A stretch of DNA of 64,000 nt from Tautonia plasticadhaerens (GTDB lineage: Bacteria; Planctomycetota; Planctomycetia; Isosphaerales; Isosphaeraceae): contig NZ_CP036426.1 in assembly GCF_007752535.1 (NCBI RefSeq), positions 2,976,001 to 3,040,000 on the forward strand, given 5' to 3'. Below, piece after piece: positions 52,205 to 64,000 of this stretch; position 1 is the stretch's first letter; every line of letters begins with the position of its first letter. The notes under the pieces were generated by a model. That model saw only the letters and a program-made list of their open reading frames with translations. It was not told the origin of the DNA and searched no databases. The position numbers and the translations under genes were made by a program.

Positions 52205-54697
52205 TCAGCTCCCCCCGCCGCCGATGGGGTCTCCGGCCGGGGTCGGGGGGGGATCGGGCCGGGAGCGCTCGGGCATGGGCCGGTCGAGGAAGCGCTCGAT
52301 GTCGTCCCGGATCGCCCGGCGGTGGGGCGCGTCGGGGAAGGGGATGTTGATCCGGGCCAGGAGCGAGCGGAGGGCCTCCGTGGCCGTCGCCCGGACCTCC
52401 GGGGCGGCCTGATCGTCCCCGGCCAGTCCGATGAGCCGGGTCACGACCAGCGACTGGACCGCCCGCTGGACGGCCGCCTGACGCCCGTCCCCGGGCTTCG
52501 GACGATGCCAGGTCCGGTCCACCAACGCATCGACGACTTCGGTGAAGCCGGGGTTGGCGTCATCCCGGGCGTGGTAGTCGGCGAGCCGGGCGGCCCGGTC
52601 GCGCTGGAGCAGCCCGGAGACGGCGAGGTCGGCGGCGACCGTGGCCGCGGCGATCGGGTCGAAGGTGGGGCCGGTGTGGCCGGTGAAGGACTCGGCGGTG
52701 CCGCCACCGAAGCCGAAGGGACGGGGCGGGATCAGGTCGAGGATCCGATCGGGCAGGGCCAGGGCGGCCGGCTCGACCGCCGACAGGACGGCGTCGAGCG
52801 CCTCGCGCTGGCGATCGGCCGGGACGACCTCGATGACCGGCTCGGGAGAAACGCCGTCGCCCGACTTCACCGCGTAGGTATACGAGGCGCCGCCGACGCT
52901 CTTGACGGCGGCCTGGAGCTGGTAGCGGTGGTGCAGGTAGAGGGGCAGGAGCTTCGCCTCCAGCATCCCGAGCGGGGTGTCGGCGTCGAGATTGGCGAGG
53001 CCGAAGCGATCGAGGGCGATTCGGCGGACCTCAAGCTCCTGGCGGAGCATGGCGACGGGGTCGTCGCCGTTGTCCCAGAGGTTCGCCAGCGGGTGGGCGG
53101 CGCCGGCGGGCCGGGCGTCGGCGTCGGCGAGGAACAGCAAGCCGGCGTCGAGGCCGTCCCGGATGATCCGAGCCAGCTCGGCATCCTCGTCGGCCTCGGG
53201 GGGGAACTGGGAATAGGCGTAGCGGATGGCGAATTTGTCGTAGTCGCCGATGCCGGCGTCGTAGGCGTCGGACAGGTCGATCTCGCCGCCTTCGGTCACC
53301 TTGACCAGGGGCGCGGGGTAGTCCATCACGGAGGCCCGGCCGTAGGAGCTGGCGGCGAAGTTGTGGGAGAGGCCGAGGGTGTGGCCGACCTCGTGGGCCG
53401 AGAGCTGTCGGATCCGGGCCAGCGACATGGCCTCGGCGTCGACGGACGGGTCGAGGCCATCCAGGTACTCGACCGGCGGGGACATCGCGCATTCGCAGCC
53501 CGTCGCCGCGTCCTCTTTGGCGGCGACGGGCACCAGGCCGGTGCCGATGAGGTAGTCCTGGCGGACCCGGAGCGATCCGAGGGTGACGTGCCCCTTGAGG
53601 ATCTCCCCGGTGCGGGGGTCGATGACGGAGGAGCCGTAGGACCAGCCCCGGGTGGAGCGGTGGACCCAGTTGATGACGTTGTAGCGAACGTCCATCGGGT
53701 CGGCGTCTTCGGGGAGGATCTCGACGCGGAAGGCGTCGTCGAAGCCGGCGGCCTCGAACGCCTCAGCCCACCAGGAGGCGCCCTCGACGAGGGCCGATCG
53801 GATGGGCTCCGGTGCGCCGGGGTCGACGTAATAGACGATCGGCTCGACGGGTGCGGAGCGATCGGCCTCGGGGTCCTGCTTCTCCAGGCGGTGCCGGGAG
53901 ATCCAGCGGGTCTCGATCGGCTCGGTGATCGGCTTCGCATAATCATGGAATTCGACGCCGAAGACGCCGACGCGGGGGTCGAGCCGCCGGGGGGCGTAGG
54001 AGCCCTCGCCTCCGAGGGGGGGCAGCTCGATGAAGGAGAGCCGCTGGCGGACGGTGACGGCCTCGGGCGAGGGGGTGGTCTGGCGGACGAGGCGTCCGGG
54101 CTCGCCGTCGGTGGCGAAGGTGAGGATGGCCTCGATCTCGGTGTTGGCGGGGAATCCCTTCGTGCGGGGGAGGTGGAGGGCGCTGCGGTCGTCGTCAAGC
54201 CGGTAGCTGCCCTGGTCCGACCGGCGGAGGGCGGCGGAGATGCCGTGCGCATCCCGGAGGGCGAAGGGGGTGAGGTCGACGAGGACGCGGCCCTCCTCGA
54301 CCGCCTCGGCCGTGAAGCCCCAGTGGACGGAGGTGGCGAATGAGTCCTCGACGGCCCGGCGCTCGGCCTCCCTGCCGGTGATGGCGCGGTATCGGGTGTT
54401 CCGTTCGACGAGGAGGACCTTGGGGCCGACCCGGTGGAAGACGACGACCCGGGAGTCGCCAAGCTGTCCTCGGTCCAGGCCAATCGGATTCGAGCCGACG
54501 CCGGAGGAGAGGGCAACCTGGTAGAGGATCTCCTCGTCGAAGCGCGCGATCTCGGCGAGGAGCTTGCCCTCGGCGTCGTCCCAGTAGAGCGGGAGGAAGC
54601 CGTCAATCTTCTCCAGGCCGTCGGTCGCCTCGGCGATCGTCGGCGGGGCGTCTTCCGCGAGGGGGAGGGCGAGGAGGACGAGCAGTGGGGCGATCAT
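52205..54697 (-). CDS. Zinc metalloprotease (DUF5117/DUF4953 type)
   Basis: 830 aa with a signal peptide ([19 protein letters not shown]). The N-terminal DUF5117-like part includes [20 protein letters not shown] and [14 protein letters not shown]-like text; the protease domain has [13 protein letters not shown] with zinc His435, Glu436, His439 and His445, of metzincin type. The C-terminal third resembles the family's DUF4953 region ([14 protein letters not shown]-like). These proteins are secreted in planctomycetes and Bacteroidetes, with unknown targets. It starts at ATG 54697, overlapping the sialidase stop by ATGA. Confidence 0.9.
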
Positions 54698-56562
54698 GGA
54701 CGTAGGCCCGTTGGTGTTGATGGGATCGCGCCTCGATCGTCGAGGAGGCCCGCCCGGTGGTTGCCGACGGCCTCGGAGGTCCGCAGGGGGCGGTCGTAGA
54801 TGCGGACGGAGCGGAGATCGCCGTAGAGGCGGGAGGCAAGCCGGGCCCGGTCCCGGCCGTTGACGTCTCCCAGCTCGGTGAGGAAGCGGGTCCAGCCGTG
54901 CTGGCGGAGGGCGCCGCCGTCGTTGAGGACGCCGTCGACGACGACGCTGAGGATCCGGGGGCCGGCGTCGACGATGACGGTGATGTGCTGCCAGTCGCCC
55001 ACCCTGAGGGTGCCGGGACCGGTGCCGGGGTCGCTGTCCCAGGTGGCCTCGGTGGTACCGTCACCGAGGGAGATGCCGAGGGTCGATCGGGTGGTCGTGA
55101 CCAGGCGGATGCCGCGTCCGGACTCGTCCCGGGTGTCGAGCAGGGTCTGGCCTCCGGTCAGCTCCCGGAAGCGGGCCTGGAGCTCGATGGCGAAGCCGCC
55201 GCGATCTTGCAGGTCGGGGAGCGAGGGCATCTCGACCTCGCTGCCTGGCTCGATCGGGTCTCCGACGTGCTCGAGGGCAAGGCCGTCGTGCTCGACCTCC
55301 CGGCGGTCGAGCTGGCCCCAGAGGTCGTCGAGGAGGCCGGGGTCGATCTCGTGGACGCGGGCGGTCTCCTTCTGGGTCTCGGTGACGTAGTAGCGGCCGC
55401 CGTCCTCGACGAAGTCGGGGTAGCTGATCCGGACGTCGGGGTCCTCGTCGTAGAGGAGGATCTCGGGCTCGGACCAGTGGATGAGGCCGTCTCGCTCGAC
55501 GCCGCCGAGGACCCAGGCGGGGTTGCGGCCCTCGTAATAGTTCCAGCCCTCGCGGTGGACGGGCTCACCGCCGTGGAAGTGGAACCAGTAGAGATACTTG
55601 CCGTTGTCGAACTTCCTGACGAAATTGGCGGCCCGGGGGTGCTTCACCCGACGGCCGTCGGGCCCGTAGGTCATGTAGGCCGTTGGGGTCCAGGTCCTGC
55701 CGCCGTCCCGACTGTAGGCCTGGCAGGGGTAGCCGTCGATGGTCCGGTAGGTGGCGAAGAGGGAGCCGTCGGAGAGGGAGACGAGGTTGGCCTCGTCGGA
55801 GACGGGCCCCTTGGGGGCGCGGAGGCCCTCGTCCCCCTCGGGGAGCAGCTCCCAGCGGATCGCCGAGGGGTCGGGCTCGGCGAGGATGTTGTCGCTGTGC
55901 ATGAACACGCCCTGGGACTCGACCATGGCGCCGGGGGTGCCCCACTTGCCGACCTTGGCGAAGCCGAGATAGGCGTCGTCGCCGACGCTGATGGGCTTGC
56001 CGACGCCCCAGAAGAACAGGACCTCGCCGCCGGTGGTGTTGCCGCGGTCGATCCCCATCCGGCGCATCGGGATCTCGAACCGGTCGTCCGACCAGGTCCG
56101 GCCGCCGTCGTCGGAATACTTGAAGGCATAGGCACCCAGCGTGTCGACCCGTCGGCCGACGGGGTCGGAGTTCGAGGGGACTTCGCGAATATTTTTGGAA
56201 TTATAAGTATAGAACGCGTAGATGCGACCGCCGGGCACCTTCAGGGGCATCACCCAGGACGCCTCGGGGCCGTCGGAGGGCTCGATGGGGATGTGGTCGG
56301 ACCAGGTGCGGCCCCGGTCGGCGCTGATCGTGGCGACGATGTGCTGGCCGGCCTGGCCCTCGTGGCCGGTGCCGGTGGTCATGGTGCAGAGCCAGTGGCC
56401 CTGGTCGGTGACGACGACGTAGGGCTGGTCGCAGTAGCCCTCGTCGGGGATCGTCCAACCGTTGCGGATGTCCCTCGGGTCGTCGGCTGCCGAGGCGAGG
56501 GAGGGGGCGATCAGCAGTGCCAGCAGCGCCGGGATGAGGGGGAGACGAGGGCGACGGGGCAT
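54694..56562 (-). CDS. Secreted exo-sialidase-like protein with LamG-type C-terminus
   Basis: 622 aa. Signal peptide: [20 protein letters not shown]. The N-terminal ~430 residues show a six-bladed propeller with three Asp boxes ([24 protein letters not shown]) as in bacterial neuraminidases. The Arg triad could not be fixed with certainty. Residues ~450-600 resemble a LamG/concanavalin-like domain ([27 protein letters not shown]), possibly carbohydrate-binding. Possibly acts on sialic-acid-like or other glycans outside the cell. Start 56562 gives the signal; the upstream open frame is low-complexity. First gene of a three-gene operon. Confidence 0.85.
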
Positions 56563-56652
56563 GGGACTTCCTCGGCAATCGATCGGGTCTCGGCGATCGT
56601 TCCGAGGGTATCGGGCCGCCCGCGACGCCGCAAGCCGCGGGGCGAGAAACGG

Positions 56653-56697
56653 GACCGGCCGCCCGCCCCGAGCGATTCGCGGGGCGGGCGGCCGGTC
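56653..56697. terminator. Perfect 17-bp hairpin after the amidohydrolase operon
   Basis: Arms 56653-56669 (GACCGGCCGCCCGCCCC) and 56681-56697 are exact reverse complements around an 11-base loop. It lies 32 bases beyond the last amidohydrolase stop and 91 bases before the sialidase start, so it could terminate the operon on the minus strand. A T-run is absent; Rho-independent function is therefore uncertain. Confidence 0.6.
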
Positions 56698-56728
56698 GTG
56701 GGTCGGCGGGGATGGGATCGGGCCGCGA

Positions 56729-58402
56729 TCAGCGGGCGTCTCGGTCGAAGACCGGGAAGACGCGGTCCTCGGCGCGTCGGTAGCGGACCTTGCCGCCGAC
56801 GATGGCTGTCTCGACGTAGGTCCGGTAGTCGAGCGGGGCGCCGTCGAGGATGAGCAGGTCGGCATCCTTGCCCTGCTCGATGCTGCCGATCCGGTCGTCG
56901 AGGCCGAGGATCCGGGCCGGGACGATGGTCAGGGCGGCCAGCGCGGTGGCCTCGTCGGCCCCCCCCCGGATGGCGAAGGCGGCCTCCAGCGGCAGGCTCG
57001 TCAGGTCGCGGCCGGCCAGGCCGTTGAGGCTGACGGAGCTACCCAGGGGGGTGATCGCGAAGGGGATGGCGGCCTTCTGGAGGATGCCGGGCGTCTCGAT
57101 GGAGGTGCCGGTGGTGTCCTCCCGGCCGGGGTCGGGGCCGCGGCGGTCCCGGGGGGTGATGATGACGGGCACGCCGGCCTTGCCGAGGTCCTCGGCGACG
57201 ACCCAGGACTCGGCGGCCCCGTCGAGGACGAGGTCGTAGTCCAGTTCGCGGGCCAGGGCGAGCATGTCGCGGATCTCCTCGGCCGAGTCGGCCCGGACCC
57301 GGAGCGGGATCTCCTTCTTGACGAGCTTGATGAGCCCGTCGTCGACCGGGTTTCGGGGCTCCTTGAGGTCCTTCTTGCCGGCTTTCTTGTCGGCCTCGTA
57401 CTCCTCCAACTCCTCCAGGTACGCGCGGGCCTTCTTGATGTTCTCCCGCCAGGAGAAGACGTTGAACGGGCCGGTGAGGGCGGAGGGGGAGAGGCTGTAG
57501 AAGGGGTCTTCGGCGGCGAGCATGCCGTCGAGGTCGCCGTAGGTCAGGCGGAGCACGGCGTAGCTGTCAGGCCGGGGCCTGGCGGGGGAAGGGGGGGCGA
57601 GCGGCTCGGGGAGGGTCTCCATGACGGTGGCCGAGCAGTGCGCGCAGGTGCCGGCGCGGTCCTGGTCGCTGAAGAAGCGGCCGTCGAACGGGGAGACCAT
57701 GCCGGGGCCCTCGCCTCCGGCGAAGAGGCCGAGGGCGGGGTCGGCGTGGCCGTGGCCGTCGCCATGCCCCCGGGCGTGGGAGATCAGGTGGTGGAAGGTC
57801 GCGTCGTCGAGCTCGCCTTCGGCGTGCAGGCCGATCAGGTCGTCGATGGTCAGCTCGACGGGGGCCCGGTCGGGCGAGCCGGGGCCGGGCTCGAAGAAGA
57901 AGCGGGAGCGGGACGAGCCGCCCACCTGCACGGCCCCGGCCGTGATGCCGGAACCGAGGCAGAACTTCATATTCCGATCGAAGGGGTCGAGCGCGTCGGC
58001 CACCTTGTTGCTGTCGCCGCCCCCCCGGCCGCTGGCGGCCGGGCCGACGCCGACGCCGTCCATGTCGACGGCGACGAATCCGGGGGTGATCACCCTGCCG
58101 CCGGCGTCGATCACCTCGGCCCCCTCGGGCACGTCGACCGACTGGCCGACGGCGAGGATCTTGCCGTCCTGGACGAGGATCGTCCCCCGGCGGATCGTCC
58201 CCCGGGTGACCGTCTCGATGTCGCCGCCGACGATCGCCAGGATGGGGCCGGGCTTCTCCTTCTCCTGCTCGGCATCCTTCGCGTCCTCGGCCGGCTTCGA
58301 CGAGGACGGCTCGGGCGTCTCGTCCTGGGCGAATGCCAGTCCGGGGGCGGTCGAGACGAGGCAGAGGAAGGCCAGGGCTCGGATGAAGTCAGTCGGTCTC
58401 AT
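56729..58402 (-). CDS. Amidohydrolase-like protein without HxH, operon gene 4
   Basis: 557 aa with a signal peptide (FIRALAFLCLVSTAPGLAFA). The amidohydrolase composite shape is visible: beta-sandwich start ILAIVGGDIETVTRGTIRRG, VITPGFVAVDMDGVGVG where the HxH ligands should be, and the C-terminal GSIEQGKDADLLILDGAPLD. The HxH pair is replaced (V-D-M-D), and later ligands are not evident, so metal catalysis is doubtful. A charged insert (ENIKKARAYLEELEEYEADK) resembles that in the 937-aa protein. Overlaps the upstream amidohydrolase gene by 14 bases (58389-58402). Confidence 0.82.
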   Translation of the reverse strand: MRPTDFIRALAFLCLVSTAPGLAFAQDETPEPSSSKPAEDAKDAEQEKEKPGPILAIVGGDIETVTRGTIRRGTILVQDGKILAVGQSVDVPEGAEVIDAGGRVITPGFVAVDMDGVGVGPAASGRGGGDSNKVADALDPFDRNMKFCLGSGITAGAVQVGGSSRSRFFFEPGPGSPDRAPVELTIDDLIGLHAEGELDDATFHHLISHARGHGDGHGHADPALGLFAGGEGPGMVSPFDGRFFSDQDRAGTCAHCSATVMETLPEPLAPPSPARPRPDSYAVLRLTYGDLDGMLAAEDPFYSLSPSALTGPFNVFSWRENIKKARAYLEELEEYEADKKAGKKDLKEPRNPVDDGLIKLVKKEIPLRVRADSAEEIRDMLALARELDYDLVLDGAAESWVVAEDLGKAGVPVIITPRDRRGPDPGREDTTGTSIETPGILQKAAIPFAITPLGSSVSLNGLAGRDLTSLPLEAAFAIRGGADEATALAALTIVPARILGLDDRIGSIEQGKDADLLILDGAPLDYRTYVETAIVGGKVRYRRAEDRVFPVFDRDAR

Positions 58403-59690
58403 AAACGGTCCTCCCTGCGATGATGACGGTGCGGAGGCGGCTATAGGGGTCGAACGGGTCGCCGTCGAAGACGAGGAGCGAGGCGGCCTTGCCCTCCTCC
58501 AGCCGGCCGAGCGCGTCGCCCTGGCCGATCAGGTCGGCGGGCCGGGCGGTCAGCGCCTCCAGGGCGACCTCCCGGGGCAGGCCGGTGGCGATGAGGTAGC
58601 CGACGTCGAACAGGGGAGTGTCCTGCGCCGAGAGCAGTCCGAAGCGGTTGCCGCCCTGGCTGAACGCAAGATCCAGGCCGGCCTCGTGGGCGATGCGGGG
58701 CAGATTGATCCGGTCCCGGTTGTCGGGCATCGTGTCGATCGTCGGCCGGAGCAGGAGGGTGACCCCTCCCCGACCCGAGAGGCGATCGAGCGTCCGGTAG
58801 ACGTCGGAGCCGGAGGCGATCAGGGCGACTTCTACGTCCTCGAAGTCCTCGATCGCGTCGAGCAGGTAGAGGATGGCGGCGGCGTTGCCGGCGTCGGCGA
58901 GCAGCGGGGCCTTGCCCTCGGCCACGGCCTTCCAGAGGTCCCGTGAGGAGTCGGCCGAGGACGACCCGGGAGAGGGCGGGCCCCCGGGGCGGCCCGACGC
59001 GCCGTCGCCGCCCGACCTCCCCCGGCCCGTCGGGCCGTCGGGACGCCCTCGCCCGCCGCCGGGGGCGTCCGGCTTGGTGGCTTCGAGGCCCTTGCGGACG
59101 ACGTCGAGGCTGGCGGTGCTGTTGGAGACGGAGACATACAAGCGCCCGTCCCGCTCGACGAGCATGCCGTCGGGGTCGTCCGGGGTGATCCGGACGACGG
59201 CCGTCTGGCCGTAGTCGGGGGGGACGAGGTCGAGGTGCGTGAGGCCGGAGCGGAGCAGGGCGTCGAAGTCGGCGCGGAAGGGATCGAAGGAGTCGGCCAC
59301 CCGGGTGAAGATGGGGGATCTCGTGGGGCTGGAGCCGCCGAGGGTGATGACCCGGCCGCCGATGATGATGGTGCGGGTCCCCGAGGACGAGGACTCGCCC
59401 GGCACCTGGAACGGGTAGGCCGGCTCGACCACGCCGGGCATGATCGTCATGCCGGAGGCGTCCTCGACCCGGGCATCCTCGGGGATCTCGACCTCGTCGA
59501 TCGGGCCGACTCGCTCGATCTTGCCGTCCCGGAGCACGATCACGCCCGTCTCGATCCGGCCGGCCTCGCCGACGGTCTCGATCGTCGCCCCCTTCAGCGC
59601 GAGCGGCCGGTCCTGGCCCCGGGCCCCGGGGGCCGGGGCGGCCAGGGCGAGCGTCGCGGCCAGGAGCGGGAGGAGGCGGGTGGGTGTCAC
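58389..59690 (-). CDS. Amidohydrolase-like protein without HxH, operon gene 3
   Basis: 433 aa with a signal peptide (LLPLLAATLALAAPAPGARG). It shows the amidohydrolase composite N-terminus (LALKGATIETVGEAGRIETG), but MTIMPGVVEPAYPFQVPGES replaces the HxH strand. DPFRADFDALLRSGLTHLD parallels a segment in the other defective members. The C-terminal segment LGRLEEGKAASLLVFDGDPF keeps the usual shape. A Gly/Arg-rich insert lies near residue 215. It probably lost hydrolase activity but may bind the same partners or substrates. It overlaps the next gene by 14 bases. Confidence 0.82.
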   Translation of the reverse strand: MTPTRLLPLLAATLALAAPAPGARGQDRPLALKGATIETVGEAGRIETGVIVLRDGKIERVGPIDEVEIPEDARVEDASGMTIMPGVVEPAYPFQVPGESSSSGTRTIIIGGRVITLGGSSPTRSPIFTRVADSFDPFRADFDALLRSGLTHLDLVPPDYGQTAVVRITPDDPDGMLVERDGRLYVSVSNSTASLDVVRKGLEATKPDAPGGGRGRPDGPTGRGRSGGDGASGRPGGPPSPGSSSADSSRDLWKAVAEGKAPLLADAGNAAAILYLLDAIEDFEDVEVALIASGSDVYRTLDRLSGRGGVTLLLRPTIDTMPDNRDRINLPRIAHEAGLDLAFSQGGNRFGLLSAQDTPLFDVGYLIATGLPREVALEALTARPADLIGQGDALGRLEEGKAASLLVFDGDPFDPYSRLRTVIIAGRTVYETD

Positions 59691-59742
59691 GGGTCGGGGC
59701 TCCGGGGGGGATGGCGGACGGCCGGTGACCGTGGACCGGGGT

Positions 59743-61008
59743 TCAGAAGCGGCGGCGATCCTTCTCGATGTCGTAGGCGACCTTGCCGTCGATGATCACC
59801 TGGGTGACGTAGTTGCGCGGGTCGATGATCGAGCCGGTGCAGATGACGAGGTCGGCGTCCTTGCCGGGCTCGATCGAGCCGACGCGGTTCTCGATCATCA
59901 GGGCCCTGGCCGGCTCGATGGTGATCCCCCGGATGGCCTCCTCCTCGTCCCAGCCGTAGCGGACGGCCATGGCGGCCTGGAAGAACAGCTCCTCCTGGGG
60001 GATGACGGGGGAGTCGGTGTTCACCCCCAGCCACTCGATGCCCCGGTCGTCGTACTCGGCGACGATACCGTGGATCTGGCCGTCGTCCGGGTCGTATCGG
60101 AACCCCCGGGGGCCGGCGATCACGGGGATGCCACGCTTGTTGATCTCCTCGGAGATCAGGTAGCCCTCGAACGTGCCGTGGCCGATCACGAACCGCAGGT
60201 TCATCGCGTCGTTGAGCATCTCCAGGGTGGCCTGGATGCCCTGATAGCCCTGGGTGTGCACGAGGACCGGGATCTCCCGGCGGAAGAGCGGCTTGAAGTA
60301 TTCCAGGCGGAGGTCGGTCTCGGGCCGCTCGGAAGTCTCGCCGGACTCGTACTTGTCCCAGGCCTCGACGTACGTGCGGCCTTCTTCGAGTTGGTCCCGG
60401 ATGATCCAGTTCATCCCCATCCGGCCGGAGCCGAGGGTGCCGTCGCGGCGCTCGGGGTTGCCCCACTGGGCGATCTTCAGGACGCCGGGGAAGCGCACGA
60501 GCACGTCGTCGAGCGTGCCGGGGCCGGTCTTGAGGATGGCGCCGAAGCCCCCCATGTTCGTGCCGCTGCCGGGGATGTAGCAGACGGTCGTCACCCCGCC
60601 GGCCACGGCCACCTGGAGGGCCTCGTTGTGGGGGATCACCTGGTCGAGCACCCGGAGGTCGGGGTTGGTCTGGTAGACCATCTCGTTCAGGTCTCCCGAG
60701 CCGCCGATGTGGCAATGCACCTCGACGAGGCCGGGCATGAGGAACTTATCGCCGCAGTCGATGACCTGGTACCCCTCGGGTATCTCGATCTCGGCCCGGG
60801 GGCCGACGGCCTCGATCTTGCCGTCCTTGACGAGCACGATGCCGTCGACGATCGGGTCGCCGGCGCAGGTGATCACCTTCCCGGCGAGGACGGCGAGGCG
60901 GCCGGTCTCCGAACCCTCGGCGGGCCGGGCGTCGTCTTGCGCCGGGGAGGACGGGGCGGAGAGCAGCACCAGGAGGGCGGCGGTCGGGGCGATCCAGGTC
61001 GGCGTCAT
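59743..61008 (-). CDS. Amidohydrolase with intact metal site, operon gene 2
   Basis: 421 aa with a signal peptide (PTAALLVLLSAPSSPAQ). The HxH motif is present at VEVHCHIGG (His98, His100). Further candidate ligands are His251 (VLVHTQGYQG), His277 (VIGHGTFEG) and the Asp in GVNTDSPV (Asp332). This is the complete set for an imidazolonepropionase-like amidohydrolase, and the only complete one in the operon. The enzyme hydrolyses a C-N or similar bond; the substrate is unknown. The start at 61008 overlaps the stop of the 937-aa gene (ATGA). Confidence 0.88.
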   Translation of the reverse strand: MTPTWIAPTAALLVLLSAPSSPAQDDARPAEGSETGRLAVLAGKVITCAGDPIVDGIVLVKDGKIEAVGPRAEIEIPEGYQVIDCGDKFLMPGLVEVHCHIGGSGDLNEMVYQTNPDLRVLDQVIPHNEALQVAVAGGVTTVCYIPGSGTNMGGFGAILKTGPGTLDDVLVRFPGVLKIAQWGNPERRDGTLGSGRMGMNWIIRDQLEEGRTYVEAWDKYESGETSERPETDLRLEYFKPLFRREIPVLVHTQGYQGIQATLEMLNDAMNLRFVIGHGTFEGYLISEEINKRGIPVIAGPRGFRYDPDDGQIHGIVAEYDDRGIEWLGVNTDSPVIPQEELFFQAAMAVRYGWDEEEAIRGITIEPARALMIENRVGSIEPGKDADLVICTGSIIDPRNYVTQVIIDGKVAYDIEKDRRRF

Positions 61009-63818
61009 CGGCGGTCGTCCTCCTGATCGAGATAGGCCCAGGTTCCGTCGATCATCACGGCGAGCACCCGGCTGGAGGGCCGGAAGGGGGGGCCGCTCCA
61101 GACGACGAGGTCGGCGTCCTTGCCGGGGGCGAGGATGCCGATCCGGTCGTCCAGGCCCAGGAATCCCGCCGGGCTCGAGGAGAGGGCGGCCAGGGCATCT
61201 CCGGTGCCCAGGCCGAGCCGGACGGCGTATCGGACGGCCCGGGGCAGGGTGCCCGACCCGGTGCCGGCCTGCGACTGGAAGCCGAAGGAGATCCCCCGGG
61301 TGGCGAGCACCTGGGCGAGGTTGACCGTCTCCCGGTCGACCTCGCGGACGAGGTCGGGGCCGACGACGACGGCCAGATCCTTCTCGGCGAGCAGGTCGAG
61401 ATCCCGGAAGGCGTCGGCGGCGCCGAGGAGGACGGTGTCCAGCTCGTGTTCGTCCCGGAACAGTTCGACGGCCGCCCGGATCTCGTCGAGGCGGGAGACC
61501 TCGACGAGGGCGGGGATGTCGCCGCCGAAGAGGGCCCGGTAGGGCTCCAGCGAATCGACCTTGTTCGGCTCCTTGGGAGGCTTGGGCTCCTCGGGGAGCG
61601 TCTCCTCGTCGGATTCGGATTCGGCCTCGGTCTTCTCGTCGTCGTCCCCGGGATCGTCGCCCTCCTGCGTCTCTTCCTCGTCGGACTCCTCCTCATCCTG
61701 ACCCTGCTCACCCCCACCTTCGGGCCGGGGGGGCTGGTCTCCGGTGGGTTCGTCCTTCGATTCGTCGGAGTCGCCTCCGGACTCCTTCTTGGCCGCCTCG
61801 GCCTTCTTCTCGGCCTCCTCGGCCGTTCGCTTGGCCGCCTCGGCCTTCTTCTCGGCTTCGAGGCGGGCCTTGGCCTCCTCATATTCTTTCTTTTTCGCCT
61901 CGTACGCTTCAAGGTCTGTCTTGTATTTTTCCCAGGATTTCGCGTAATCGCCGGCGCGTCGGAGGGTGGAGCGGAGGCCGGAGACGGCGGTCGTGAGGTT
62001 GCCGCCGAGCTGGAAGCGGATGGCGGCGGGATCTCGCAGGACGGTCGGCTCGTCGCCGAGCTTGAAGGCGACCACCGGGGAGGGGGAGGAGGACTCGCGG
62101 GGGCCGGTGAGTACCGTGGTGATGCCGCCCCTTCGGGCGACGGCCACGGCGGGGTCGCCGGAGACGAGCCGCTCGCCGAGCTTGGTCTCCAGCGAGACGT
62201 TCGTCCGGGACGGGCCGCCGAAGTCCCGGTCCTCCTCGTCGTCCTCGATGATGATCGGGAAGGGGCCGAGCACGATCGTCGAGGAGGTCGCGGAGGGCGG
62301 GCGGCTTGAGAGCGGGCCGCCGAGGCCGAGGTCGGCGGCCAGGTCGAGCAGGCCGGGGGTGACGACGGCATCCTCGAAGACGAAGACCTCGGCGTCGATC
62401 GGCGCGGAGGCATCGGGGCCGACCCCCCGGATCATGCCGCCCTGGACGACGATCGTGGGGGCCTCGACCGTCGAGCCGTCGCCGAGCTGGGCGGAGCCGG
62501 CCCGGATGACGGTAGCCTTCGACTCCGGGTCGGCCGACCAGGAGCGTCGGCCGGAGACGTAGACCTCCCGGACCCGGGAGTGGAGGTCGAAGGGGTCTCC
62601 CGAGAGGACGACGAAGTCGGCGTCCTTGCCGGGGGAGAGGGTGCCGACGCGGTCTCCCACGCCGAGCAACTCGGCGGGGGAGGCGGTGACCATCCGGAGG
62701 ACCTGGGACTCGGAGAGGTCCCCGGCGGTGAACTGGCCGGCGAGGAAGAGCAGGTCGCCGAGGTCGGCGTCGGTCGCAGGGACGATGGCCACGGGGATCC
62801 CCGCGTCGACCAGGGAGGCGGCGTCCTCCCAGGGCTCGGTCGGCTCGGGGTCGCCGGGGGAGGGGACCGGCAGTTCGGTCACCTCGCCGGGCCGGAACCG
62901 GGCGTCGAGCACGACGCCGTCGACGAGGCCGGCCCAGGAGTCGAGCCGGCCGAGGAACGGGGACAGGTCGAGCGGGTTGACGAGAAGGAGCCTCAGGTCG
63001 AATTCCCGGGCCAGCGCGAGGGCGGCCCGGATCTCGGAGGCGCCCGGGGCGGTGACCCGGAGTCGGCCGGTGTCGTCCAGGGCGGCGGCGAGGGGGCCGA
63101 GCAGCGGGTCGGTCCCCCCGGCCGGGTCGTCGGCCCGGGCGGCCCCGATGAGCGACCGGAGCCCGGCGACGGCCCCGGCGAGGCTGGAGGCGAGCTGCGG
63201 CTGGGTCGGGTCGATGGGCCGGTCCCGAGAGGCGAGCCGGGGGGGAGGCTCGTAGATCCGGGGAGGGTTGAGCGCCTCGGGGGAGAGCAGGATCCGGAGG
63301 TCCCCCTCGGGGTCAAGCGTCCGGTCGGCCGGGTCCGGCCCGTCGAGCTTGACGACGGCCCCCCGGCCGGGCATCAGCCGGCTGCGGCCGGGGCTGAGCT
63401 GCACGCTGGTCACGCCCCCGGAGAGCGGTCCGTCGAACTCGGCGAAGGGGTCGAAGCCGTCGATGGCGCGGACTTCGGGGGTCAGCGCCCGCTCGTCGTC
63501 CTCCCGGACGGCCCCCAGGCCGGTCTCGGCCGCGACGAGGCCGGGGATCAGGACCGCCGAGCTGCCGAGGTCGACCTCCCGGGCCGTCTCCGGCACCTCC
63601 ACCTCGGCCTGATCGCCGACGGCGACGACCCGGCCGTCGGCGACGACGAGCACCGCGTCCTCGATCGGCGGGCCGTCTCCGGTCCAGAGCCGGCTCGCCC
63701 GGTAGGCGACCGCCTCCTCGGGGGGGGCGGCCGTCGCCGGGGGGACCAGGGCCGCGACGACGATGAGCAGGAGGAGGGGGAACGGGGCGGGGCGGGACAT
63801 GGGCAATCTCATGCTCAT
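61005..63818 (-). CDS. Double amidohydrolase-like protein, operon gene 1
   Basis: 937 aa with a signal peptide (APFPLLLLIVVAALVPPATA). Two amidohydrolase-like halves are joined: half 1 has SAVLIPGLVAAETGLGAVRE and ends VGTLSPGKDADFVVLSGDPF; half 2 starts IRAGSAQLGDGSTVEAPTI, has VVTPGLLDLAADLGLGGPLS, and ends IGILAPGKDADLVVWSGPPF. Both halves lack HxH at the expected strand. Between them in half 2 is a ~130-residue Lys/Glu-rich coiled coil and acidic region (YEEAKARLEAEKKAEAAKR, then many Glu/Asp). Start 63818 is set by the signal peptide. Probably secreted and non-catalytic. Confidence 0.85.
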   Translation of the reverse strand: MSMRLPMSRPAPFPLLLLIVVAALVPPATAAPPEEAVAYRASRLWTGDGPPIEDAVLVVADGRVVAVGDQAEVEVPETAREVDLGSSAVLIPGLVAAETGLGAVREDDERALTPEVRAIDGFDPFAEFDGPLSGGVTSVQLSPGRSRLMPGRGAVVKLDGPDPADRTLDPEGDLRILLSPEALNPPRIYEPPPRLASRDRPIDPTQPQLASSLAGAVAGLRSLIGAARADDPAGGTDPLLGPLAAALDDTGRLRVTAPGASEIRAALALAREFDLRLLLVNPLDLSPFLGRLDSWAGLVDGVVLDARFRPGEVTELPVPSPGDPEPTEPWEDAASLVDAGIPVAIVPATDADLGDLLFLAGQFTAGDLSESQVLRMVTASPAELLGVGDRVGTLSPGKDADFVVLSGDPFDLHSRVREVYVSGRRSWSADPESKATVIRAGSAQLGDGSTVEAPTIVVQGGMIRGVGPDASAPIDAEVFVFEDAVVTPGLLDLAADLGLGGPLSSRPPSATSSTIVLGPFPIIIEDDEEDRDFGGPSRTNVSLETKLGERLVSGDPAVAVARRGGITTVLTGPRESSSPSPVVAFKLGDEPTVLRDPAAIRFQLGGNLTTAVSGLRSTLRRAGDYAKSWEKYKTDLEAYEAKKKEYEEAKARLEAEKKAEAAKRTAEEAEKKAEAAKKESGGDSDESKDEPTGDQPPRPEGGGEQGQDEEESDEEETQEGDDPGDDDEKTEAESESDEETLPEEPKPPKEPNKVDSLEPYRALFGGDIPALVEVSRLDEIRAAVELFRDEHELDTVLLGAADAFRDLDLLAEKDLAVVVGPDLVREVDRETVNLAQVLATRGISFGFQSQAGTGSGTLPRAVRYAVRLGLGTGDALAALSSSPAGFLGLDDRIGILAPGKDADLVVWSGPPFRPSSRVLAVMIDGTWAYLDQEDDRR

Positions 63819-64000
63819 GGTGCGGTGGCCCGGGGCGGTGGGTGATCGATCGCGGAGGGCGGGAGGCGGCTGCCGGACGCGGCCGGGCCGGGGCCTCGAC
63901 GCCCGAGGGTCGTCCGATCCGGGTTCGACGCGCCCTCGGCCCGGCCAACCGTCGTCATCGGCCAATCAATCCTCGCCGGCGTCGTCCCCGATCGGCCGGA

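Follow-up and report, generated by a model that had tools for sequence, protein, structure and literature searches.

The window, the whole stretch of 64,000 nucleotides analysed here from a genome of 9.4 Mb, contains near its end a row of amidohydrolase-like domains, of which only one appears to have an active site, and this raises the question why so many related domains are kept side by side. An earlier note had described four minus-strand genes with five such domains, and the open reading frames together with their translations bear this out.

Gene order and the single complete metal site

The following features were assigned in the window:

56729-58402, minus strand: 557-aa protein, position 9 of the cluster, non-catalytic (open reading frame list, ligand alignment)
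57617-57853, minus strand: His/Cys-rich insert with CAHC in the 557-aa protein (mostly pLDDT below 50)
58389-59690, minus strand: 433-aa protein, position 8, non-catalytic (open reading frame list, ligand alignment)
59743-61008, minus strand: 421-aa protein, position 7, the sole domain with a complete metal site (open reading frame, 3ooq_A match, ligands)
60013-60015, minus strand: D332 codon, strand-8 ligand (alignment; 89 of 92 position-7 domains)
60178-60180, minus strand: H277 codon, strand-6 ligand (alignment)
60256-60258, minus strand: H251 codon, strand-5 ligand (alignment)
60475-60477, minus strand: K178 codon, strand-4 ligand (aligns with the Lys of GLKMAFGEN in 3OOQ; 92 of 92)
60709-60717, minus strand: H98-x-H100 codons, strand-1 metal ligands (alignment)
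61005-63818, minus strand: 986-aa frame, positions 5 and 6 as a fused non-catalytic pair (start at 63818 assumed, before a signal-like stretch)
61782-61997, minus strand: charged helical insert in the second domain of the 986-aa protein (one long predicted helix, 579-650, in a low-confidence model)

The genes are tightly packed, with overlaps of 14 nt between the 557-aa and 433-aa genes and of 4 nt between the 421-aa and 986-aa genes, and a gap of 52 nt between the 433-aa and 421-aa genes. The 986-aa frame consists of two domains, which makes five domains across the four genes; it is open from 61005 to 63965 on the minus strand, and the start at 63818 chosen in the earlier note is plausible. 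The operon is not confined to four genes, and an end at the window edge had to be rejected, as three further frames of 461, 485 and about 900 aa continue on the same strand past the window end and bear four non-catalytic domains. In total it has seven genes with nine domains, and the window carries positions 5 to 9 in the direction of transcription. A promoter scan found none, and a terminator scan (7 sites versus 3.0 expected) was uninformative here. All four window proteins pass at least one cut-off of the Pfam families PF01979 and PF07969, the best stretches being C-terminal. Among the best 25 NCBIfam equivalogs listed per protein none reached the curated cut-off for any window protein; the Xaa-Pro dipeptidase family NF051886 remained below it for the 421-aa protein (72.8 bits, cut-off 500).

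The closest PDB sequence relative of the 421-aa protein is 3OOQ, an amidohydrolase of Thermotoga maritima (3ooq_A, E 2e-56), which it resembles in the HxH, the Lys, the two further His and the matching Asp. Judged by the 38% identity between the two, the 421-aa protein has the beta-sandwich and TIM-barrel fold. H98, H100, K178, H251, H277 and D332 are invariant when it is aligned with six relatives (7 sequences), and on the basis of this alignment it carries the complete binuclear-type metal site of the amidohydrolase superfamily. The HxH at 98-100, His251, His277 and Asp332 had been named before and are all in place; only K178 on strand 4 was missing from that list.

The site is kept in relatives as well. 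In the 53 complete clusters described below, 89 of the 92 position-7 domains have the full set of six residues, and in the remaining three the Asp alone is missing; an alignment-free check found HxH within residues 31-130 in all 92. Furthermore, the pocket, defined as 37 positions at strand ends picked by hand, is more conserved than the rest of the domain at position 7 (z +5.96, 25 clusters). The number of catalytic copies varies: 19 of the first 25 clusters have one and the maximum is five, and in 40 further loci there are one to four copies in 39 (including L228) and none in one (L215).

Spread, surroundings and joint inheritance of the nine positions

We read 65 planctomycete loci, two of them from one genome. 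Five belong to the home family, 20 were picked among best matches, multi-copy cases and good assemblies, and 40 were a non-random choice from matches of the fused position 5-6 gene, made by place in the contig. The full order of six non-catalytic, one to five catalytic and two non-catalytic domains is present in 53 of the 65 (21 of 25 and 32 of 40). Seven of the 12 incomplete loci end with the contig (L159, L162, L171, L194, L203, L205 and L218), L165 is clipped by the stretch read, and L204 and L216 are split hits. In L215 the rest of the cluster is present without the catalytic gene, and L228 is a marker match but no such cluster.

Within the home family the cluster occurs in 5 of 45 genomes as judged by the 421-aa protein, four from one genus and one from another, and all nine positions were read in them. 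Across the phylum, matches to the 421-aa protein at E <=1e-45 are found in 117 of 392 genomes, and the profile of the fused gene (A2) reaches E <=1.6e-99 in 104 of 392, which is a count of the marker and not of clusters, the weakest of the 104 being the genome of L228. Among 16 genomes of named records A2 attained this level in two, both of them planctomycetes. It attained it in none of 199 genomes in the phylum of a Pyrinomonadaceae genome (best 3.7e-80) and none of 198 in the phylum of a Balneolaceae genome (best 2.8e-91), where the sub-threshold matches listed range from a single domain to about 580 of the 883 profile positions. One genome (G115) carries two complete nine-position clusters, L156 and L170, whose catalytic proteins share 67% and 46% identity with that of the window. 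The 421-aa protein is 65-67% identical to proteins of another class, which is similar to the 66% to the second genus of its own family and suggests that the unit has been lost or laterally transferred.

Downstream, a BNR/LamG protein and an 830-aa Met-zincin-type protein (DUF4953, DUF5117) adjoin the cluster at 52205-56865 of the window on the minus strand. Both were rejected as operon members, as the BNR gene is kept in the genus and neither was found in the stretch of the second genus (G022). The genes on either side of the cluster are shared within the genus and were not found beside it in G022; the flanks thus differ while the cluster stays, which marks the seven genes as the conserved unit. 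We extended the neighbour survey to 64 loci (L228 left out), of which 30 have at least 2000 bases on both sides, so that flanks are short. A Glycos_transf_3 gene of the phosphoribosyl- or nucleoside-phosphorylase type (e.g. L163:16833-17918) adjoins the cluster in 14 of the 64 loci, in two families only, and this lineage-limited link may hint at a role. Other neighbours are an unassigned frame (10 of 64, one family), a helicase-like gene (5) and four others with 4 each, including a transketolase; among length-selected frames of 25 loci the helicase of the genus was seen, and a transketolase in three loci. Within the short flanks read, no outside gene accompanies the cluster generally and neighbours recur only within lineages; a partner gene may lie farther away.

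In a FastTree phylogeny of 488 rows, positions 2 to 9 are each found on one side of one branch (supports 21, 95, 99, 99, 99, 100, 92 and 99, in this order), and three changes are required for position 1. For the complete set of labels the count is 14 changes, which is the least possible, compared with 352.5 in shuffles. The exception in a 238-row tree is position 2 with two changes, and in an IQ-TREE phylogeny of 99 rows it is again position 1 with three changes, and positions 2 (3) and 6 (66) are weakly supported there. According to these trees most positions were already distinct before the lineages parted; for positions 1 and 2 we are unsure of this. The inter-cluster distances obtained for different positions correlate with each other (r 0.77-0.96, 21 clusters). 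Fusions of neighbours point in the direction of a physical association: positions 5 and 6 are fused in all 53 complete clusters, positions 1 and 2 in 10 and positions 2 and 3 in 2, which suggests contact between the fused positions. Export was judged by a hydropathy rule applied to N termini, and the proportion of first domains passing it is lowest at position 4 (16 of 23) and highest at position 9 (23 of 24).

Possible roles of the non-catalytic positions

The statement that the other four window domains have non-ligand residues at the HxH strand agrees with our alignment of 54 domains, which includes those of five clusters except for two of the five position-8 domains; these were dropped by the rule for cutting out domains and are covered by a profile alignment instead. 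The 421-aa protein has H H K H H D there, as do its four orthologues, and the other domains of the five clusters reach a maximum of two of the six residues, namely H98 and K178 at position 4. At the columns of H98, H100, K178, H251, H277 and D332 the 557-aa protein has D D L R G G (H rather than L at the K178 column in the profile alignment, where it adjoins an insert), the 433-aa protein A P Y D S F, and the first and second domain of the 986-aa protein E G R T N - and A D R E G -, respectively. An HGH at 217-219 of the 557-aa protein lies within an insert, off strand 1. The DPF...GxT segment, which had been singled out in the same note, is indeed common to the domains but no special mark of the set: it has a counterpart (LDGFNP...GGVTS) in 3OOQ and in the catalytic domain. 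We therefore consider it a general family segment and rejected it as the mark of a new shared function.

Among the 424 non-catalytic domains of the 53 complete clusters, a score of five ligands (HxH, K/E, H, H) gave 263, 98, 48, 13 and 2 domains with none, one, two, three and four kept. Conservation of the operon and of the missing ligands in relatives had been set as a check beforehand and is what we observe, with 53 of 65 loci having the full order and 361 of 424 domains keeping at most one of the five ligands; this conservation in other genomes excludes chance. Pocket positions are not preferentially conserved at the non-catalytic positions, with z values from -2.53 to +0.75 (25 clusters). 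Most of these positions keep invariant residues of their own elsewhere (at position 3 these include Arg196, Arg204 and Glu268, in 53 of 53), and position 8 has few. Both observations together are easier to reconcile with structural or regulatory functions than with a binding pocket that is conserved. The explanation that we favor, and which we regard as rather probable from the sequence comparisons, is that the cluster encodes an exported hydrolase, a hetero-oligomer in which one position is active and the eight other domains are pseudoenzymes with structural or regulatory roles. The earlier suggestion of one catalytic and several non-catalytic paralogues can be extended to one position of nine; the secreted complex proposed with it would be supported indirectly by the fusions, the joint inheritance and the absent pocket conservation.

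A different reading is that the eight non-catalytic domains are separate exported proteins that bind or sense ligands and pass them on without a joint complex with the 421-aa enzyme. The signal-like N termini, the own invariant residues at most positions and the barrel fold kept in the 557-aa model would all suit such proteins, as would position 4, which keeps His and Lys and adds a pocket Cys. This model of the 557-aa protein (pLDDT 72) retains the amidohydrolase fold, i.e. a beta-sandwich and a TIM barrel as modelled, with 3ooq as the top match (Z 37.8, rmsd 3.1, 361 aligned; next best 24.4). On the other hand, the pockets at positions 1, 2, 3, 5, 6, 8 and 9 lack preferential conservation (z -2.53 to -0.08), and separate binders would not be expected to keep a constant nine-part order with fusions. 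We consider this reading unlikely, and the alternative already raised in the earlier note, binding proteins derived from enzymes, is weakened in the same way by the unconserved pockets, with the exception of position 4.

Some non-catalytic positions could also be active with another set of ligands. One candidate is position 4 (461-aa protein, L009:11967-13352), where H98 is kept in 43 of 53 and K178 in 49 of 53 clusters and a Cys replaces Thr at 252 in 42 of 53. With His98, Lys178 and the pocket Cys252 it may bind something, and this position may be an exception with a different ligand or chemistry. Lineages with HxH and Lys at position 2 are another candidate: HxH within residues 31-130 occurs in 16 of the 424 non-catalytic domains, a genuine PGxxDAHxH in four, three of them at position 2, and seven of the 15 domains with three or four of the five ligands belong to this position. 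The ligand score speaks against such activity as a general feature, as the great majority of the 424 domains keep at most one ligand and none keeps all five, and no substitute set was found at the six ligand columns of the four non-catalytic window domains, to which this comparison refers. Overall, alternative activity seems improbable to us. That the extra domains are decaying duplicates without function is extremely unlikely: they do diverge faster (mean identity 0.28-0.41 versus 0.49 for the catalytic position, 21 clusters), but neutral decay would break frames and order, and the open frames in constant order in 53 complete clusters, the invariant residues at most positions and the joint inheritance led us to reject chance or decay.

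Returning to the hetero-oligomer, the neighbour fusions, the joint inheritance and the lack of pocket conservation are the reasons why we assume that the nine domains would assemble with each other. An ancestor composed of several equal subunits would have been duplicated, with most copies retained only as scaffold, gating or regulatory subunits. In the 421-aa subunit, a metal-activated water would hydrolyse an amide bond, a peptide bond or the like in an extracytoplasmic compound, and our guess by analogy with better characterised PDB relatives is a dipeptide or an N-acyl amino acid. As the catalytic gene alone has been multiplied (one to five copies) and the other eight are single, specificity would probably be changed by swapping the active subunit on a fixed frame. 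It is possible, although we would give this fuller history slightly less than even credence, that the cluster encodes an ancient hetero-oligomer of planctomycetes, located outside the cytoplasm and built from nine paralogous domains of which eight are dead and the active one is exchanged or multiplied to change specificity, i.e. a modular hydrolase platform that arose from a homo-oligomer as active sites were lost step by step. Several points count against the hetero-oligomer: the residues at position 4, the 15 of 424 domains with three or four ligands, the tree results for positions 1 and 2, and the loci L215 and L228. The few invariant residues at position 8, the model of the two-domain 986-aa protein (seven rows, pLDDT 54.6), which is too poor for fold or domain arrangement, and the hand-picked pocket positions add to these.

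The inserts are restricted to some positions. Charged coiled-coil inserts, which the earlier note considered as a possible means of holding the complex together, may or may not have this role. A strongly charged stretch of 60 residues is present at position 1 in 12 of 22 domains, at position 6 in 14 of 24, at position 8 in 10 of 25 and at position 4 in 5 of 23, and at none of the others. The His/Cys-rich insert of position 9 contains a CxxC (CAHC, CAVC, CQCC or CGCC) in 7 of 24 domains, namely L009:4733-6529 and the orthologues in L040-L043, L155 and L156; the three included in the 99-row tree form one branch. It is possible that this insert provides an extra metal site.

Related architectures and known systems

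A wider survey covered the best 80 of 248 confirmed loci from bacteria and archaea. Among these 80, a full-length domain without HxH lies beside a catalytic one in 18, and 15 of the 18 have the dead domain following the catalytic one. They include loci of Balneolaceae, Pontibacter, Acidobacteria and planctomycetes (the catalytic frame of L102 is truncated). These pairs, encoded in frames of about 400-540 aa or fused in frames of about 870-940 aa, resemble the cluster in combining a complete HHKHHD domain with a dead paralogue and in their mostly signal-like N termini, since 22 of 24 frames in the 15 loci have a hydrophobic N terminus. They differ in having two domains instead of nine, and those members present in the 99-row tree fall outside the position-7 branch. 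The remaining loci among the best 80 of 248, a group that includes L069, L108 and L112, each also with a degenerate neighbour, have a signal-like N terminus in 1 of 72 frames, 25 of which were measurable. 3OOQ, which as mentioned above is also the top fold match of the dead 557-aa member, is a single-domain protein in contrast to the nine-domain set, and its single-domain relatives account for this one signal-like N terminus in 25 measurable frames. In the 99-row tree the degenerate Clostridium domain of L112 clusters with the catalytic one next to it (support 99), which indicates that dead partners arose more than once. The genome of the window itself encodes a 1658-aa frame (C1:6267223-6270477) with the order dead, catalytic, dead. 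It is thus similar to the cluster, but all three domains are part of one polypeptide and form separate branches.

Complexes that retain dead paralogues of an enzyme are known. The PDB matches of position 4 include the dihydropyrimidinase-related proteins (CRMPs), which are cytoplasmic and not known to act as enzymes. As non-enzymatic, oligomer-forming superfamily members, CRMPs resemble the proposed dead domains; unlike the planctomycete cluster they are eukaryotic, reside in the cytoplasm and have no operon with an active paralogue. Aspartate transcarbamoylase, the partner of a pseudo-dihydroorotase in Pseudomonas aeruginosa, is not known to be a homologue of this chain, whereas the dead and active parts of the planctomycete cluster are paralogous. 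According to the report on the P. aeruginosa enzyme, the two form a dodecamer in which the partner depends on the inactive dihydroorotase-like chain for its activity (PMC7053772), and to this extent there is a precedent for a dead chain of the superfamily that serves a partner. In our literature search, which had little coverage of subscription journals and preprints, no description of the planctomycete nine-domain cluster was found.

If the hetero-oligomer is correct, a nine-domain set with one active position, a fixed order and phylum-wide spread would be an extreme case of such complexes and a good model for the transition from homo- to hetero-oligomers; the intermediate steps are testable, because one-, two-, three- and nine-domain lineages coexist. 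Family profiles call all these proteins amidohydrolases, and this enzymatic label is probably wrong for eight of the nine domains. Furthermore, the apparent export together with the multiplied active subunit would point to an unrecognised role of planctomycetes in the breakdown of outside compounds.

Two other arrangements were noticed in passing. Holdemanella porci (L082:2191-6720) has four tandem single-domain amidohydrolases with complete ligands, a duplication without loss of the site. In G000, two amidohydrolase matches with identical scores and frame lengths lie about 10 kb apart in opposite orientation on the second contig (C2:102098-103108, minus strand, and C2:112302-113312, plus strand) and are perhaps an inverted duplication.
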